A stretch of 64,000 nt of DNA, taken from NCBI GenBank assembly GCA_030550395.1, contig JAUQPL010000008.1, positions 1 through 64,000 on the forward strand, written 5' to 3'. Under the pieces are notes generated by a model. That model saw only the letters and a program-made list of their open reading frames with translations, was not told the DNA's origin and made no database searches. A program made the translations under genes and the position numbers. The stretch is from Bacteroidota bacterium (GTDB taxonomy: Bacteria; Bacteroidota; Ignavibacteria; Kapaibacteriales; HRBIN21). Shown one piece after another: positions 14,007 through 44,374 of this stretch (its first letter is position 1; each line of letters begins with the position of its first letter).

Positions 14007-14051
14007 GAAAAAGAAAAGGGGCGCTCTGCGAAGCTGTGTGCAGAGCGCCCC
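14007..14051 (-). terminator. Strong intrinsic terminator of the redox cluster
   Basis: A perfect 12-bp stem (GGGGCGCTCTGC / GCAGAGCGCCCC, 14018-14029 and 14040-14051) with a 10-nt loop. Read on the reverse strand it is followed by TTTTCTTTTTC. It ends the transcript of the five-gene cluster 19212-14070 and insulates rpoD from it. Confidence 0.92.
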
Positions 14052-14069: not shown

Positions 14070-16562
14070 TTAGCGTTGGAGAAGCAGCGGGAAGGTGTAG
14101 CAGCGGCTTCCAACGTGGAGTCGCAACCAATATAGCCCTGTAGCACATGGGCTACCAGTCTGCGCTCGAGTGTCCCAGAGCAGTCTCCCTGTTGGGGTTC
14201 CACTTACCGGGAGATGGCCTATCACTCTCCCGTCCGTTGCTACAATCACTGCACTTTTGAGTTGGTAGCCCGTGGGGAGTTCATAGGTTATCACACATGC
14301 TTCCGTTACTGGCATAGGTGTGATGTGGACCCGGATGGGCATCTCCGCTGCTTCTCGGATGCCGACGGGTTGTTTGCCAACCCCACGGAGAAGCACTGTG
14401 AGTGTGTCCCGCTGAAATTGTCCTCTATAGGCGATTCGCAGAGGCTGTTCGTAGAGCCTCTCCTCGTGAGGAGCAAAGCGAATCTTCAGTTCAACAGATT
14501 GTCCCGAATCCAGTCGGATAGGAGTCGGTGGTGGGGCCACCAACTCAAACGCCATGTCGATGGAGATGCCAAGATCGAGCTCCTCCACATGAACGGTCAG
14601 TGGTCCTGGATTCTTTAAGACAAGTGTCTGCTCAGCAGACTGGCCGAGGGTGACGGTGTCAAAGTCTACAACATCCGTGCTTGTCACCAGCTGTGGTAGG
14701 GTACCCTGACCGCTCAGGAGCAAGCTGGGTGGGGAGGCGACGTTTGCGGTAAAGCGAATCTCTGCCCGTCGTTCGCCAACGGCGGTGGGAACGAAGGCAA
14801 GGCTGAGACTGCGCTCCTGACCCGGTGCCAATGTAAAGCTTCCACCTCCACTCACAAGCCGGAAGTCGCCAGCGTGTTCGCCGGCAAGTTGAACACTGCT
14901 GACCCGGAGGGTGTCATCACCGGCATTGTAGACGATACCCTGCAGCGTCAAGGCCGTGCTGTCGCCCAATTCGACGACACCGAAATCAACGCTGGACTGC
15001 CGGAGTGCCAGAATAGGCTGTCCTGGCTGTGTTACTGTAAGCCGGGCTGGGTTGCTTATTGTCTGCCCGCAACTGTTCCAGACAAGGCAGTCGTAGAGAC
15101 CGGCATCGGCGGGCTGCACCGAGGCGATAGTATAGGTCGGTTGTGTCGCTCCGGCAATAGCGACCCCATTTTTCCGCCACTGATACTGCAGCTCTATCCC
15201 ACGAGCTTGCACGGTGAAGGTAACGGGCTGTCCTACGCGAACGCTCTGGGACTGTGGATGCTGTGTGATAGTAGGCGGTTCCACTACGGTCAGCTGAGCA
15301 GACGCACTCTGTGCCGGGGGTTCGCAATCTCCGGTGACGACAACATCGTAACTACCAGAGTCCGTAGGCTGTACTGAAGCAATGACATAGGTTGCGCTTG
15401 TTGCCCCTGGGATGTCAACCCCATTTTTCCGCCATTGGTAGCGGAGGTTTGTTCCGGTGGCACTTACGCGAAAGGTGGCTTGCTGTCCCACACAGACTGT
15501 CAGAGACTGCGGTTGCTGCGTAATGCGGGGACGCTCCTTAACGGTGAGCCGGACCGTATCGCTGGCGACCGAGCCGCAGGCATTGCTGACCACAACATCG
15601 TAGATGCCGGCAGCGCTCGGAGTAGCAATAAACTGGTACGTTGCCGATGTTGCGCCGGGGATATTCTGCCCGTTGAGGCGCCACTGATAACTCAAGCCCG
15701 CACCCTGAGCACCGACGCTGAAGGAAACCTGACTACCTTCGCAGACCGTCTGCGGTTGCGGTTGCTGGGTGATGTTCGGGGGACCACTGATGGAAAAGTT
15801 CGCGTCGCTCACATCAAAAAGTTGCGCATCTGCAGCATCGCTGATACGGATACGGTACTGGGAGCCAGCTGGTTGGTTTGCTGGAATGGACCAGCTCCAA
15901 TTTCCTGCCGAAGCAGGGACATTGGTTGCTAAGGTGGTCCATGTCTGGCCGCCGTTGGAGGACAGCTCAATAATGACGTAATCTACACCAACACTGTTCC
16001 AGCGAATGCTCTTTGTGCTCCCCGCGCACCACGTCTCTCCGCCATTGGGTTCCAAAACCGTAATGCCAGCAACCGTTATAGTCACAGGAGTAAGGAAGTT
16101 CCACGCATCCCCACCAGTATTCCCGTTTCCATTGACTGCATTACCGACGGCACGCAGGGTGTAGTTACCTGGCATATTCGGGGCAGTCCAGCTAAAGGCG
16201 AAAGAGGCCTGCCCATTGTTCATGGTCTTAGGTTGGGAATGGGTGAGCTCACCGCTAGAGAGCTGGAGTCCAGAGCCGGAAGCCGGAGCAAGCGAACCAG
16301 CGTTTTGCCCCGACTGATTGTGCACGGCAATATTAATCCCGGCTGCTTGTTGTGAATTATGGGCGACGATAACAGTCAAATTCAACGTCTGTCCTGGGCG
16401 AGTACGGAAGCTTCCGCTACTACTCTGGGCTGTCAATGTCGTTGCTGAATTTGCAGAGCCATGGCAGGTACAACCGCTTATCGTTAACCCAGTAGCTCCC
16501 GAGGAATAGCCCAGGGCAGGAGCGAGTGGAATAGCGAAAGCGAACAAGTACAACGCCACCAT
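14070..16562 (-). CDS. Large Ig-repeat secreted protein with choice-of-anchor V head and T9SS tail
   Basis: An 830-residue exported protein. After a signal peptide (about 1-18) comes a head of choice-of-anchor-V type, with ISGCTCHGSAN (a CxCH motif) and PGNYTLRAVGNAVNGNG. Next is a VLEPNGGETWCAGSTKSIRW module, then three Ig-like repeats (about 262-512) each with YQWR and Y-D-VV elements, two ASPM/HYDIN-like modules (about 518-735), and a C-terminal ATGLYWLRLHVGS-FPLLLQR tail resembling a type IX sorting domain. It is probably secreted through the outer membrane and anchored. It is the last gene of the redox cluster, 27 bases after the Rieske gene, with a strong terminator behind it. Whether the CxCH motif binds haem is open. 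Confidence 0.82.
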   Translation of the reverse strand: MVALYLFAFAIPLAPALGYSSGATGLTISGCTCHGSANSATTLTAQSSSGSFRTRPGQTLNLTVIVAHNSQQAAGINIAVHNQSGQNAGSLAPASGSGLQLSSGELTHSQPKTMNNGQASFAFSWTAPNMPGNYTLRAVGNAVNGNGNTGGDAWNFLTPVTITVAGITVLEPNGGETWCAGSTKSIRWNSVGVDYVIIELSSNGGQTWTTLATNVPASAGNWSWSIPANQPAGSQYRIRISDAADAQLFDVSDANFSISGPPNITQQPQPQTVCEGSQVSFSVGAQGAGLSYQWRLNGQNIPGATSATYQFIATPSAAGIYDVVVSNACGSVASDTVRLTVKERPRITQQPQSLTVCVGQQATFRVSATGTNLRYQWRKNGVDIPGATSATYVIASVQPTDSGSYDVVVTGDCEPPAQSASAQLTVVEPPTITQHPQSQSVRVGQPVTFTVQARGIELQYQWRKNGVAIAGATQPTYTIASVQPADAGLYDCLVWNSCGQTISNPARLTVTQPGQPILALRQSSVDFGVVELGDSTALTLQGIVYNAGDDTLRVSSVQLAGEHAGDFRLVSGGGSFTLAPGQERSLSLAFVPTAVGERRAEIRFTANVASPPSLLLSGQGTLPQLVTSTDVVDFDTVTLGQSAEQTLVLKNPGPLTVHVEELDLGISIDMAFELVAPPPTPIRLDSGQSVELKIRFAPHEERLYEQPLRIAYRGQFQRDTLTVLLRGVGKQPVGIREAAEMPIRVHITPMPVTEACVITYELPTGYQLKSAVIVATDGRVIGHLPVSGTPTGRLLWDTRAQTGSPCATGLYWLRLHVGSRCYTFPLLLQR

Positions 16563-16589
16563 TGGAACACCCTCGGCATTGTTGGATTT

Positions 16590-17057
16590 TCAAAAAGTAA
16601 TGCGGAGCACATTCCGACTGGGGTCATATTCACTGGAAAAGCGCCGCAAGGGGTTCCGAGCCGGTCCCTGCAGTACATTCCCGGAGTCCGCAGCAAAGCG
16701 GGCACCATGACATCTGCATGGGATTACTCCCCCCTCAGGAAGGTCCACAGTACATCCTTCGTGAGTGCAGACTGCCGACAGAACGATGAACTGAGTCTCG
16801 CTGAGCCGAATGATGAGTACAGGTTTACCACTGTTGTGGTTGCCGAAAGTGCGCTTGACAGCGCCCCCAACCTGCTGCAGCTCAGGGACTGTCGAAATAT
16901 CTAATTCCACCGTCCCTCCGGGTTCTGTTGGCTGCTTGGTCTCGGAAGCACAGCCTTGTAGCCAGTTCAGCACCAGGGGGAGACAGATGCCAGCACCCAG
17001 CAGACTTGCTGCCTTGAAGAGAAATTCCCGTCGTTCACAGGAAGGGCGTTTCTCCAT
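16590..17057 (-). CDS. Rieske 2Fe-2S protein, Tat-exported lipoprotein
   Basis: A 155-residue iron-sulfur protein. The N-terminus has a twin-arginine signal (RREFLFKAASLL) running into a lipobox-like WLQGC, so it is likely exported folded and lipidated. The Rieske ligands are in CTHEGC and CRCHGARF, followed by GPARNPLRRF. No cytochrome b or bc1 gene is adjacent, so it probably acts as a free electron carrier within the cluster rather than as part of a bc complex. The ATG at 17057 is chosen over 17108 because it places the RR motif near the N-terminus. Confidence 0.9.
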   Translation of the reverse strand: MEKRPSCERREFLFKAASLLGAGICLPLVLNWLQGCASETKQPTEPGGTVELDISTVPELQQVGGAVKRTFGNHNSGKPVLIIRLSETQFIVLSAVCTHEGCTVDLPEGGVIPCRCHGARFAADSGNVLQGPARNPLRRFSSEYDPSRNVLRITF

Positions 17058-17077
17058 TGCTTCCTTCAGTGTCAGTT

Positions 17078-17737
17078 CTACATTGCAGAGCCATAAAGCG
17101 TTACCCACACGCGGATGTTTTCTCCCACGCGGCTTCCAATGACTCCTTGACGCCCGCGGATGTTAAAGTCGCGCAGCGAAAGTGTGAACTCGCTCTGGAC
17201 CATCACAAGATCCCCTGGGGCGCGCTTGCGGGTTTCGGCGTTTTCCAGAACGTACGTCAGCGTGATGGGGAGCTCCATTGGCTTTTGAACCCCGTGCAAT
17301 GAGAAGAGCCCAACAGCTTTGGCAGTCAAGACGGCGCGCCCTCGGCTCTGTTCGGTAATGCGAACATCGGTGAGCTTTTGAATGTCAAAGCTGATGGTGG
17401 GGTAGCGTTCGGCGTCTAGCCAGTCAGGGCTCCGCAGATGCTCGTCTCGTCGAGCAATCCCTGTTCGCATGCTTGCCACAGTGACTCGGATCTGCCCTTG
17501 TGTTGCCTCCAAGTTCTGCGGATCAAGGGTAAAGCTGCCTGAGACTTCATCTGCCGTTCCTTCAAACTCTTCCAACGGCGCACTACTGTGGAAACGGCAG
17601 AGGTTTTGTCCAACGCTGTTGGTCAATGTCACCGTCTTCTTCCCGCTGACAGGTAGCGGTAGTTGAGTTGCTCCCAGAGCAACTGTGACGTTAACGAGAC
17701 TGACAAGCACAAGCTGCCCGATGCGTTGGACAGACAT
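17078..17737 (-). CDS. YceI-family periplasmic lipid-binding protein
   Basis: A 219-residue protein with a signal peptide and the YceI lipocalin-like barrel: TDEVSGSFTLDPQNLEA-like strands, SMRTGIARRDEHLRSPDWLD, RYPTISFDIQKLT, and the closing FTLSLRDFNIRG and IRVWVTLYG. YceI proteins bind isoprenoid or other apolar ligands, such as quinone-like molecules. A much longer open frame (to 18286) runs through the next gene on the same strand and is not used. It lies 20 bases before the Rieske gene, which makes a quinone-linked role attractive but unproven. Confidence 0.88.
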   Translation of the reverse strand: MSVQRIGQLVLVSLVNVTVALGATQLPLPVSGKKTVTLTNSVGQNLCRFHSSAPLEEFEGTADEVSGSFTLDPQNLEATQGQIRVTVASMRTGIARRDEHLRSPDWLDAERYPTISFDIQKLTDVRITEQSRGRAVLTAKAVGLFSLHGVQKPMELPITLTYVLENAETRKRAPGDLVMVQSEFTLSLRDFNIRGRQGVIGSRVGENIRVWVTLYGSAM

Positions 17738-17763
17738 GACAGCATCCCCTTGGTTTGTAGGAC

Positions 17764-18030
17764 TCACGCTTTTCTCCGGCGGATCCACCGTCCTAGGAGC
17801 CAAACACCAAGACCGACGGCTGCCACAGGTCCGGCAATATCCAACCCTAACCGGAAGCTGGGCTTCCATTCCACACGCTCCCGGCTGGTACCGAAGATAG
17901 GGTCGTGTTCTCGGTAGACGACCATCTGTTTGTCCTTTGTGAAGACGTGCCCGCCGTGAGCAAGCCAGAGGGCGAGCACGACGAGAGCAATAAACAATCC
18001 CAACCACCGCACAAGTTCCCAGCCACGCAT
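17764..18030 (-). CDS. Small two-span membrane protein of unknown function
   Basis: An 88-residue protein with two membrane segments (LGLFIALVVLALWLAHGG and DIAGPVAAVGLGVWLLGRW) and a charged middle region of about 30 residues (YREHDPIFGTSRERVEWKP) that would face the periplasm. It ends in a basic RRRKA tail. It lies 15 bases after the cytochrome-barrel gene and 26 bases before the YceI gene, so it is part of the cluster. I do not recognise the family. Confidence 0.75.
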   Translation of the reverse strand: MRGWELVRWLGLFIALVVLALWLAHGGHVFTKDKQMVVYREHDPIFGTSRERVEWKPSFRLGLDIAGPVAAVGLGVWLLGRWIRRRKA

Positions 18031-18045
18031 AGGGGCATTTCGTGT

Positions 18046-19212
18046 TCAGTAGAACATGTGTAGCTGTATAGCGAACCGACCACTGCGGTAGGATTCGGTA
18101 TCGGCCCAGCGATACTCCGGACGAAGCTCCACGAACGGAAGTACGAAGAGCTGAGCTCCTACAACCAACTGTGTCGTATACGGTACAGGGTGGAAAGAGG
18201 GTTTGGTTACAACGCCGTGTTCTATACGGACGTAGGGCATCACAGCATTCCGAAGCCACAGACATACTTCGGTGGTTATTGTCCATCGGTGTAAAAAGTC
18301 CGTGTGAAGGGTGCTATACTCCGCCCACACGGATAAGTGGTCTATCCAACCAAATCCGCCGAAGAAATTCCAGAGGGCAAAGTCTGAATTCCCGAACTGT
18401 GAGGCGCCTATGGAGAGCTTCCAATAGCGGGTACCGGGGAAAAGCCATAGATGGCCGTTCCAGACTGGGCGTGAGGATGCTGTAATTGGTCGGAATTCCC
18501 CTGTTTCAGTAGAGAGGCGAACTTCGGACAACTCTCCGGCTCGGAAGGCACCGGCGCAGAGACTTAGCCAGGAGACAGAGCCCCAATAGAGCAGCGTTCC
18601 CCATTGAGCGAAGTCAGGTGCCAGGAGGTAAGTTTCCTGTGGAGAGTCAAAGCGAGCACCGGGCATGCGGCGGACCAGCATAGTGTGGTCGTCATAGCGC
18701 ATCCCGACAGCTGGTTGGAGGAAGCCTATCTGTATGCTGGGGAGTGCTTTTGCCGGGTGGAAGTCAAGCCATGCACTCCAGCGCTGCTGTCCAGGGAAGA
18801 GGATCCGTCCAGGATTGAATGTCAGTGCTGCTGAGAGAGCCTTCAACGGTTGGAGACCGATATGAAGAGCGGCTTGCATGGGGAAGAGACGCCAATGTGG
18901 ATTGTAGGCTGGATTGTGTGATTGGAAGCCCTGGACCCGGAGGTCCGTCCCTACTACGAGGAGCCCGTTCCATAGGGTGTTCTCCTGTTGCTGCCACCAC
19001 CGCTCTATGCTCCCAAGTCCTAGGTGTCGCCACTGGAGAAGTCCCACATCGTGCATTGAGTACCATCCCAGCTCGCTCCGGAGCCCACCACCTCCAGGGC
19101 TGAAATGGCATGCATGACACCGATTACCCGTCAACAGGGAAAACGAAGGAACTGCCCTTGCAACAGAGGCAGCGGACAATCCAATGAGAGCGGCGGTCGT
19201 AAGCCAAGCCAT
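18046..19212 (-). CDS. Outer-membrane beta-barrel with N-terminal c-type haem motif
   Basis: A 388-residue protein. The signal peptide (about 1-20) is followed at once by VPSFSLLTGNRCHACHFSPG, which contains a CxxCH c-haem site (residues about 32-36), then GGGGLRSELGWY. The rest alternates short hydrophobic/aromatic strands (WNGLLVVGTDLRVQGF, LHIGLQPLKALSAALTF, FVELRPEYRW) and ends in FAIQLHMFY with a terminal aromatic, as in outer-membrane barrels. A barrel with a haem at its periplasmic mouth could pass electrons or place a cytochrome at the outer membrane. It is the first gene of the cluster, 74 bases after cnoX. Confidence 0.8.
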   Translation of the reverse strand: MAWLTTAALIGLSAASVARAVPSFSLLTGNRCHACHFSPGGGGLRSELGWYSMHDVGLLQWRHLGLGSIERWWQQQENTLWNGLLVVGTDLRVQGFQSHNPAYNPHWRLFPMQAALHIGLQPLKALSAALTFNPGRILFPGQQRWSAWLDFHPAKALPSIQIGFLQPAVGMRYDDHTMLVRRMPGARFDSPQETYLLAPDFAQWGTLLYWGSVSWLSLCAGAFRAGELSEVRLSTETGEFRPITASSRPVWNGHLWLFPGTRYWKLSIGASQFGNSDFALWNFFGGFGWIDHLSVWAEYSTLHTDFLHRWTITTEVCLWLRNAVMPYVRIEHGVVTKPSFHPVPYTTQLVVGAQLFVLPFVELRPEYRWADTESYRSGRFAIQLHMFY

Positions 19213-42511: not shown

Positions 42512-44374
42512 ATGGCAACGGAGCATGCGGTAGAAAGTGTGGTTGTCCACCACGAGCCGCAGAGTTTTTGGCGGCGGTATATCTTCAGCATGGACCATAA
42601 GGTCATCGCCATCCAGTATATGATCACTGCTGGGCTCATGGGGCTTATTGGTTTGGTGATGTCCTGGCTCATGCGAATTCCCTTAGCATGGCCGGGGGAG
42701 TCGGTCCCGATTGTGGCAAAGATTTTCCCTGGGCTCTTTGAAGGGGGTGTTCTCCGTCCTGATGCCTACTTGGCGATGATGACCATGCATGGGACGCTGA
42801 TGGTGTTTTTCTTCCTGACGGCAATTCTATTGGGGGGCTTTGGGAATTTGCTTATCCCTCTTCAGTGTGGGGCACGGGATATGGCATTTCCATTTGTGAA
42901 CATGCTGAGCTACTGGGTATTTCTTCTCTCGTGCCTGATTATGCTGGCATCCTTGTTTGTTACAGGGGGTGCAGCAGCAGCGGGGTGGACAGCCTATCCG
43001 CCGCTCAGCGCGTTGGAAAAGGCGGTTCCAGGATCCGGGCTGGGGCAAACGTTGTGGTTGGTTGCTATGGCAGTGTTCATCGCCTCATCGGTCATGGGAG
43101 GCTTGAACTATATTACCACAGTACTCAATCTCCGCACGCAGGGGATGTCTATGATGCGCCTGCCCTTGACAGTGTGGGCACTGTTTGTTGCGGCAATTTT
43201 AGGTCTGTTGGCCTTTCCAGCGCTTTTTGCTGGGGCGGTGTTGCTGTTGTTGGATCGGCATTTGGGGACCAGCTTCTATTTAAGCCATGTTGTGGTTGGA
43301 GGGGAGCATATCGTCCGGGAGGGAGGAAATCCCTTGCTATGGCAGCATCTGTTCTGGTTTCTCGGGCATCCGGAGGTCTACATCCTAATTCTGCCGGCAA
43401 TGGGTATTGCCTCGGAGATAATCTCTAACAATGCCCGAAAGCCCATTTTCGGCTACCGGGTCATGGTATACTCCATTATCGCTATTGGTTTCTTAAGCTT
43501 CATCGTCTGGGGGCACCACATGTTCGTTAGTGGGATGAACATATGGCTCAGTGCCGCTTTCACGCTGACCACGCTCATTATTGCTGTTCCTTCGGCGGTG
43601 AAGACGTTCAATTGGTTGGGGACGCTCTGGCGTGGGAAGCTCCGTTTCACGACGGCGATGCTGTTTGCTATTGGCTTTGTCTCAACCTTCGTCACTGGTG
43701 GGCTTACAGGGATTTTCTTGGGAAACCCGACAATTGATATCCAGCTACACGATACCTACTTCGTGGTGGCACATTTCCACATCGTTATGGCGACCAGCTC
43801 GGTATTTGGAATCTTTGCCGGCGTGTATCACTGGTTCCCGAAGCTATTTGGTCGTATGATGGATGAGCGATTAGGGAAACTGCATTTCTGGCTTACGTTT
43901 CTGGGAATGTATGCCATCTTCTTCCCGATGCATTACTTGGGCTTCATGGGGGTACCGCGGCGCTATTACGGTTTTGGTCTCCTGCAGTACCTTGCTCCCA
44001 ACACGCAGGATATTCAGCTTTTCATCAGTGTGGCAGCTTTCATCACGGGGGCGGCTCAGTTCCTCTTCTTGGTCAATCTCATCCGGAGCATCTGGTGGGG
44101 GCGGCGGGCAGAAGCGAATCCCTGGCAAGGCAATACTCTGGAATGGCAAGCGCCATCGCCTCCACCTCATGGGAATTGGGGAGAGAAGCTGCCGGTGGTA
44201 TATCGCTGGGCATACGACTATAGCGTTGCCGGTGCCTCGCAAGACTTCATACCGCAGACCGTTCCTATAGAGCAGGAGCCTACGGGAGAACCGGGCCGTC
44301 ATGTGCCGTTGCCGACAGTTGCGGCTACTCTTTCTGGTGATGGAAATGGGAAACCGCTTCAGAACGGGGGATAA
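42512..44374 (+). CDS. coxA: Cytochrome c oxidase subunit I (A1 type)
   Basis: A 620-residue, 12-span subunit with haems a and a3 and CuB. MTMHGTLMVFFFLTAILLGG has the low-spin haem His, WFLGHPEVYILILPAMGIAS carries the CuB His, the D-channel Glu and the cross-linked Tyr, VWGHHMFVSGMN the CuB His pair, VPSAVKTFNWLGTLWRGK the K-channel Lys, and YFVVAHFHIVM the haem a3 and a His ligands. The GHPEVY-xxxxP form makes it A1 type. A hydrophilic C-terminal tail of about 70 residues is added. The start follows coxB by 18 bases. Confidence 0.97.
   Translation: MATEHAVESVVVHHEPQSFWRRYIFSMDHKVIAIQYMITAGLMGLIGLVMSWLMRIPLAWPGESVPIVAKIFPGLFEGGVLRPDAYLAMMTMHGTLMVFFFLTAILLGGFGNLLIPLQCGARDMAFPFVNMLSYWVFLLSCLIMLASLFVTGGAAAAGWTAYPPLSALEKAVPGSGLGQTLWLVAMAVFIASSVMGGLNYITTVLNLRTQGMSMMRLPLTVWALFVAAILGLLAFPALFAGAVLLLLDRHLGTSFYLSHVVVGGEHIVREGGNPLLWQHLFWFLGHPEVYILILPAMGIASEIISNNARKPIFGYRVMVYSIIAIGFLSFIVWGHHMFVSGMNIWLSAAFTLTTLIIAVPSAVKTFNWLGTLWRGKLRFTTAMLFAIGFVSTFVTGGLTGIFLGNPTIDIQLHDTYFVVAHFHIVMATSSVFGIFAGVYHWFPKLFGRMMDERLGKLHFWLTFLGMYAIFFPMHYLGFMGVPRRYYGFGLLQYLAPNTQDIQLFISVAAFITGAAQFLFLVNLIRSIWWGRRAEANPWQGNTLEWQAPSPPPHGNWGEKLPVVYRWAYDYSVAGASQDFIPQTVPIEQEPTGEPGRHVPLPTVAATLSGDGNGKPLQNGG

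Follow-up and report, generated by a model that had tools for sequence, protein, structure and literature searches.

Porins fused to a cytochrome have been known chiefly as iron oxidases (Cyc2 and Cyc572), and genome surveys for them use Cyc2 models and the Cyc2 motif. Cyc2, which is reported to oxidise iron, is defined by the motifs AXPXFAR[Q/K][T/Y], CXXCH and PXL on a 16-stranded OprO/OprP-like porin, with OprP and OprO as its reported templates (PMC8406198). Cyc572 of Leptospirillum is likewise a fused cytochrome-porin, and the genes of its pathway are reported not to be clustered (PMC10654088). Here, we describe a cluster of five minus-strand genes, at 14070-19212 in a 64,000-nucleotide stretch of DNA (contig JAUQPL010000008.1, positions 1 to 64,000; hereafter, the window) from a bacterium of the order Kapaibacteriales, class Ignavibacteria, that includes a barrel protein with the layout of Cyc2 but without its motifs. 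Together with a dedicated Rieske lipoprotein encoded in the same cluster, this protein, a candidate fused monohaem cytochrome-porin, probably forms an electron path across the outer membrane. The remaining three genes, which encode a small membrane protein (TM88), a YceI-family protein and a large secreted protein, appear to belong to a second unit that is often found on its own.

The barrel protein and its proposed Rieske partner

The barrel gene (18046..19212, minus strand) encodes a protein of 388 amino acids in which VPSFSLLTGNRCHACH comes after a signal peptide whose end is at about ARA, and the C-terminal residue is aromatic. The single CxxCH of the protein, CHACH, occupies residues 32-36, so that a c-type haem motif, predicted to carry covalent haem, and an outer-membrane barrel share one chain. 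The AlphaFold model, which was built from 44 sequences and holds no haem, consists of 16 main strands with a predicted local distance difference test score (pLDDT) of 88.5, and the nearest solved folds are those of OprP (2o4v, Z 25.0) and OprO (4rjw, Z 24.8), aligned over ∼275 residues with 14% identity. At the sequence level, the protein matches no family in Pfam or NCBIfam, the 44 aligned relatives yield just weak barrel models and chance matches in these collections, and the barrel profile retrieves nothing from the PDB sequences up to an E-value of 10. The residues C32, C35, H36, G41, R45, G49, M112, D175 and H176 are invariant across the 44 aligned barrels, and among these, either M112 or H176 might provide the second haem ligand.

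At E<=1e-3, barrel matches were detected in 122 of the 197 genomes of the class, including 31 of the 34 genomes of the order, and the barrel also matched contigs that carry the names Kapabacteria, Ignavibacteria, Latescibacterota and Gemmatimonadota. The CxxCH motif is retained in every one of the 62 barrels of the non-redundant set (<90% identical to each other). The original prediction, made from the DNA letters with no database search, is borne out here both in the barrel with an N-terminal haem site and in that its homologs did not turn out to be ordinary porins lacking a conserved CxxCH. On a Latescibacterota chromosome, a complete barrel gene and two partial ones are found within a single segment (L038:7950-14170, plus strand), with Rpn-like transposase-type genes between them.

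The Rieske gene (16590..17057, minus strand) encodes a [2Fe-2S] lipoprotein of 155 amino acids that is apparently exported through the twin-arginine translocation (Tat) pathway, as had been proposed. The PF00355 match (E 9.6e-11) is accompanied by the arginine pair R9 and R10, the lipobox cysteine C36 and the CTHEGC/CRCHG motifs. In 20 aligned copies, R9, R10, C36 and the cluster ligands C97, H99, C114 and H117 are all invariant, the pattern of two Cys and two His (CxH...CxxH) being complete; the disulphide cysteines, both present in the protein studied here, are kept in 39/53 and 38/53 members of a larger set. The best matches among the PDB sequences are to Rieske proteins, those of the b6f type included, and to AioB. 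Cytochrome b (PF00033) was not found in the genome, which is 99% complete, and a role of the protein as a bc1/b6f subunit is therefore ruled out. The same genome encodes a second, different Tat-type Rieske protein (L134:9395-10138, plus strand, contig C14), whose gene lies between a NuoE-like gene upstream and, downstream, a gene for a lipoprotein with a choice-of-anchor-D-like repeat.

The barrel and Rieske genes lie together far more often than expected by chance. A Rieske gene on the same strand and within 3 kb of the barrel gene is present at 51 of the 62 loci, or 48 of 56 when six hand-picked loci are left out (L137-L139 were fetched because a Rieske match was already known beside the barrel), compared with a chance expectation of ∼0.3% per locus. 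By the same measure, TM88 accompanies 33 of the 62 barrels, YceI 22 and the secreted V-domain protein 8. The Rieske gene lies upstream of the barrel in some families and downstream in others, and the outer flanking genes vary as well, so that the linkage has been kept through rearrangement and cannot be explained by one inherited gene order. The expectation that the genes stay together in relatives is thus upheld, across many genera, for the barrel and the Rieske protein; the full set, which requires the V-domain protein, is limited to 8/62.

The two genes also tend to be absent together. Within the order, all 31 genomes with a barrel contain a Rieske match at E<=4.4e-32, compared with none, 2.1e-19 and 1.1e-9, respectively, in the three genomes without a barrel (G037, G071 and G143). 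The joint absence has a Fisher p of 1.7e-4, a value that involves an E-value split picked after the data were seen and a Rieske model to which some of the counted genomes contributed sequences. The single-contig genome G037 (L127) lacks the barrel and Rieske genes but retains their neighbours in place, namely panB, TM88, the gene for a cytochrome lipoprotein and the gene downstream.

Several further redox proteins are encoded near the barrel in relatives or elsewhere in this genome. In relatives, the neighbouring genes encode small lipoproteins that carry CxxCH or CX4CH, a lipoprotein of the PSCyt1 type that has two haem motifs, and a multihaem protein containing an MtrC/MtrF-like domain; one family has additional multihaem genes at this location. 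A homologue of the small cytochrome lipoprotein, with the motif CALVGCH, adjoins panB on contig C14 of this genome. A CX4CH lipoprotein cytochrome adjoining panB is found at L146:1240-1725 (plus strand), and in several relatives, both genes are located just upstream of the barrel cluster. The genome further contains an operon for alternative complex III (ACIII; L135), from ActA, with five haem motifs, to ActE, and three COX1 matches; one of these falls within the window, at about 42605-44044, where a COX1-type oxygen reductase subunit is encoded at 42512-44374.

The second unit and the layout of the cluster

TM88 (17764..18030, minus strand) is small and appears to have two transmembrane helices, in agreement with its earlier description as a small membrane protein, along with a loop that contains a conserved DxxFG; it forms a family of its own, with only chance matches in Pfam, and occurs in 55 of the 197 genomes of the class. 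The adjacent gene (17078..17737, minus strand) encodes a secreted protein that belongs to the YceI family, as predicted, with a PF04264 score of 97.4 bits against a cut-off of 23.7 (E 1.4e-27). Solved relatives include E. coli YceI (1y0g), TT1927b (1wub) and proteins named polyisoprenoid-binding protein.

Away from the barrel, TM88 mostly adjoins YceI (L109-L128). The pair is joined by a short V-domain protein at L109, L110 and L111, and TM88 is found with a V-domain protein at L116. In three genomes (G123, G133 and G168), the TM88 module is located at one locus and the barrel-Rieske pair at another. At L070:2316-4154 (minus strand), TM88 and YceI are encoded in one continuous frame, a natural fusion, which suggests that the two proteins act together. 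Because these genes are found together away from the barrel and are fused in L070, TM88 and YceI, sometimes with the V-domain protein, represent a unit of their own that is merged with the barrel and Rieske genes here and in several relatives. In this respect, the view of the five genes as one set does not hold: the cluster is a union of two modules that are often apart.

The large secreted protein (14070..16562, minus strand; 830 amino acids) consists of a choice-of-anchor V head (16068..16508, minus strand; NF041895, 111.7 bits against a cut-off of 42, E 3e-32) with CTCH inside it, three immunoglobulin (Ig)-like repeats (PF13927) and two choice-of-anchor D repeats (NF012200, E 6e-22). The Ig repeats and the CxCH had been recognized correctly, and the head, for its part, turned out to be an already known domain. 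The proposal of a tail like those of the type IX secretion system was not confirmed, as sorting-domain models of this system in Pfam and NCBIfam do not match the protein; its tail resembles the tails of relatives, and the genome encodes SprA, a protein of this system.

Among 15 aligned copies of the V domain, C13, C15, H16, H90, D134 and W136 (domain numbering) are invariant. The spacing between the two cysteines varies, CxxCH being the commonest form next to CxCH and CX4CH, and relatives of the CTCH found here have CGSCH, CGTCH, CGGVGCH and other variants. CxxCH and CX4CH are known attachment motifs for haem c, and CxCH is unusual, so that the one-residue spacing in this protein looks atypical for covalent haem. 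The AlphaFold model of the domain (pLDDT 92.4) is most similar to the F-spondin reeler domain (Z 11.8), followed by several cytochrome f structures (Z 10.1-10.6) and by Ig-like folds (9.9 and lower); a search of the PDB sequences gave nothing convincing. The alignments with cytochrome f, unlike those with most of the listed Ig-like folds, start at the N-terminal residues. The resemblance of the predicted structure to cytochrome f is a lead rather than a demonstration.

The five genes are separated by spacers of 15, 26, 20 and 27 bases, within the range and at the positions and strand originally given; the second spacer is measured to the YceI ATG at 17737 and becomes 23 bases if an alternative GTG start just before this ATG is used. 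The cluster ends, as had been claimed, with a strong intrinsic terminator (14018..14051, minus strand), a hairpin with a GC-rich 12-bp stem and a 10-nt loop (-27.4 kcal/mol, z -5.5) and, after it, a T-rich tail, TTTTCTTTTTC. It was detected by folding; a simple scanner passed over it because of its loop limit. A thioredoxin-TPR gene is located 74 bases upstream of the cluster, with dnaA beyond it, and the same dnaA-thioredoxin-barrel order is present in Bacterium HR21 (L033) and in one more relative (L032). A plasmid search with the DNA from the barrel gene to the YceI gene returned no match.

Proposed electron flow and alternative explanations

If the barrel and the Rieske protein form an electron path, the haem would be placed inside the barrel lumen or at its periplasmic opening and exchange electrons with something outside the cell. 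The Rieske protein would swap electrons with this haem and with periplasmic c-type cytochromes, for which the small cytochrome lipoprotein is a candidate. A high potential is usual for Rieske centres of this type. Such a centre suits the inward direction, and iron oxidation is the known role of monohaem porins; inward flow is therefore, by analogy, somewhat more likely than outward flow. Electrons from a dissolved donor, for example Fe(II) or a reduced small molecule, could then pass through haem, Rieske protein and cytochrome c to an oxidase. More speculatively, YceI may bind an isoprenoid or quinone, with TM88 anchoring it at the inner membrane, and the V-domain protein may reside on the cell surface. 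A chain from the periplasm to the outer surface had been proposed for this cluster; the anatomy of the proteins fits the part from periplasm to outer membrane, along which electrons would flow.

Some observations weigh against this path. Barrels without a nearby Rieske gene occur at L036, L037, L038, L043, L062 and L075 and among several of the most distant members of the family, and therefore, other partners must be possible. The lone haem may need a close partner to span the membrane, and the direction of flow is argued by analogy. Since some relatives are without the second cysteine pair, the potential of the Rieske centre may differ between species.

The same conduit could also run outward, with electrons leaving through the Rieske protein and the haem barrel to extracellular acceptors, for example Fe(III), humics or a partner cell. 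Genes for multihaem MtrC/MtrF-like cytochromes adjoin the barrel in some relatives, and Ignavibacteriaceae are among the listed Fe(III)-reducing taxa (PMC6344600); nevertheless, with one haem site in a barrel, unlike the multihaem export conduits, with three COX1 matches and ACIII encoded in the genome, and with a Rieske centre of a generally high-potential type, this reading is rather unlikely. Far more evenly balanced, with a chance only a little below even, is the view that the barrel and the Rieske protein are the only redox partners, and that TM88, YceI and the V-domain protein are an independent envelope module, involved in isoprenoid or lipid handling or in surface structure, that shares an operon with them because of common regulation. 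The separate location of this module in many genomes, including G123, G133 and G168, the TM88-YceI fusion and the lack of a redox motif in either of these proteins all speak for such independence; against it stand the repeated co-occurrence of the modules near the barrel and the invariant Cys-Cys-His plus His in the V-domain head.

At the opposite end, the cluster could encode a complete wire through the envelope, novel in design, in which the stand-alone Rieske lipoprotein and the haem-porin are continued by a protein at the cell surface, its V domain being itself a c-type cytochrome folded like cytochrome f. This appears quite unlikely; if true, a Rieske and cytochrome-f-like pair, which normally takes part in quinol oxidation, would operate across the outer membrane, one protein on each side. 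Finally, no electrons at all might cross the outer membrane, the barrel being an ordinary diffusion porin with a structural or sensory haem and the Rieske protein serving another periplasmic enzyme. The fold is indeed that of solute porins and the barrel comes without an identified extracellular partner, but the CxxCH is invariant, the gene of the redox partner is kept through rearrangement and lost jointly with the barrel, and Cyc2, with the same architecture, is reported to oxidise iron, so that we regard this explanation as very unlikely. Under the favoured reading, a Rieske lipoprotein partner free of cytochrome b makes the onward electron transfer from a monohaem porin to the periplasm testable with two purified proteins, and testable roles follow for Rieske lipoproteins, for the TM88-YceI pair and for the little-studied choice-of-anchor V domain.

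Comparison with known systems

Among the known conduits across the outer membrane, MtrAB, MtoAB and PioAB differ from the arrangement described here in that a multihaem cytochrome is threaded through a separate, larger porin, whereas here the one haem site lies within the barrel chain. The Rieske protein shares with the bc1/b6f Rieske subunits and AioB the fold family, the ligands, the disulphide cysteines and the Tat-type signal; it differs in being a lipoprotein, with no cytochrome b detected in the genome and a cluster that does not encode the large subunit of an arsenite oxidase. The Rieske/cytochrome b pair of Caldithrix abyssi is a different, cytochrome-b-linked system. The YceI protein is a clear member of the family of E. 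coli YceI and TT1927b, set apart by its pairing, and once its fusion, with a two-helix membrane protein, and the large protein resembles other choice-of-anchor V proteins, which are surface or secreted proteins with this domain at their N-terminus, but differs in its CxCH and in the linkage to YceI and TM88.

A Rieske-linked fused cytochrome-porin is not described in the searched literature, which is weak evidence because most subscription journals were outside its scope. The claim that no system with this exact set has been described therefore stands as far as that literature goes, but the architecture of the barrel has precedents in Cyc2 and Cyc572. Cyc572, compared by description only, also combines an N-terminal CxxCH with a predicted 16-stranded barrel, and differs from the barrel studied here, which has a conserved gene partner.

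The similarity to Cyc2 is closer: both are secreted outer-membrane proteins of ∼400 residues with one N-terminal CxxCH on a 16-stranded OprO/OprP-like barrel, a short AxPxF...TG signature precedes the C..CH of the haem site, and at 388 amino acids, the barrel is within the Cyc2 definition for length and haem (a single N-terminal CXXCH, >=365 amino acids). This common layout would be expected if the barrel were a divergent Cyc2 iron oxidase. However, in place of AXPXFAR[Q/K][T/Y], it has AVPSFSLLT (family consensus ALPQFSLLT), and in place of PXL four residues past CXXCH, it has CHFSPGGGGLRSELGW (consensus CHVxxQGGGLRNELGW), with GGGxRxxLGW following the haem site. The hidden Markov model of the barrel, compared with ten Cyc2-motif proteins that were retrieved with a degenerate DNA pattern, gives a best stretch of 7-9 bits, which covers only ∼22 N-terminal residues in the alignments shown, and there is no full-length sequence similarity. 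Moreover, Cyc2-motif proteins exist apart from the barrel in other members of the class, and the genetic linkage of the barrel is to TM88, YceI and a Rieske lipoprotein. Descent as a divergent Cyc2 is thus highly improbable; with the motifs missing and no full-length homology, the barrel is not classed as Cyc2, although by its architecture it would work in the manner of Cyc2. Fused cytochrome-porins with the Cyc2 motif (FARQTG..C..CH followed by PxLNAFGR) were found at L099-L105, in a family from another part of the phylum (probably Chlorobi), and at L106-L108, in one genus of the same class as the window.

Because the barrel shares the layout and the predicted fold of Cyc2 but neither its motifs nor its homology, we regard it as most likely a third fused cytochrome-porin family, one with a new genetic setting. 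Such a family, widespread in Kapabacteria, Ignavibacteria and Latescibacterota and lacking the Cyc2 motif, would escape the surveys that rely on Cyc2.

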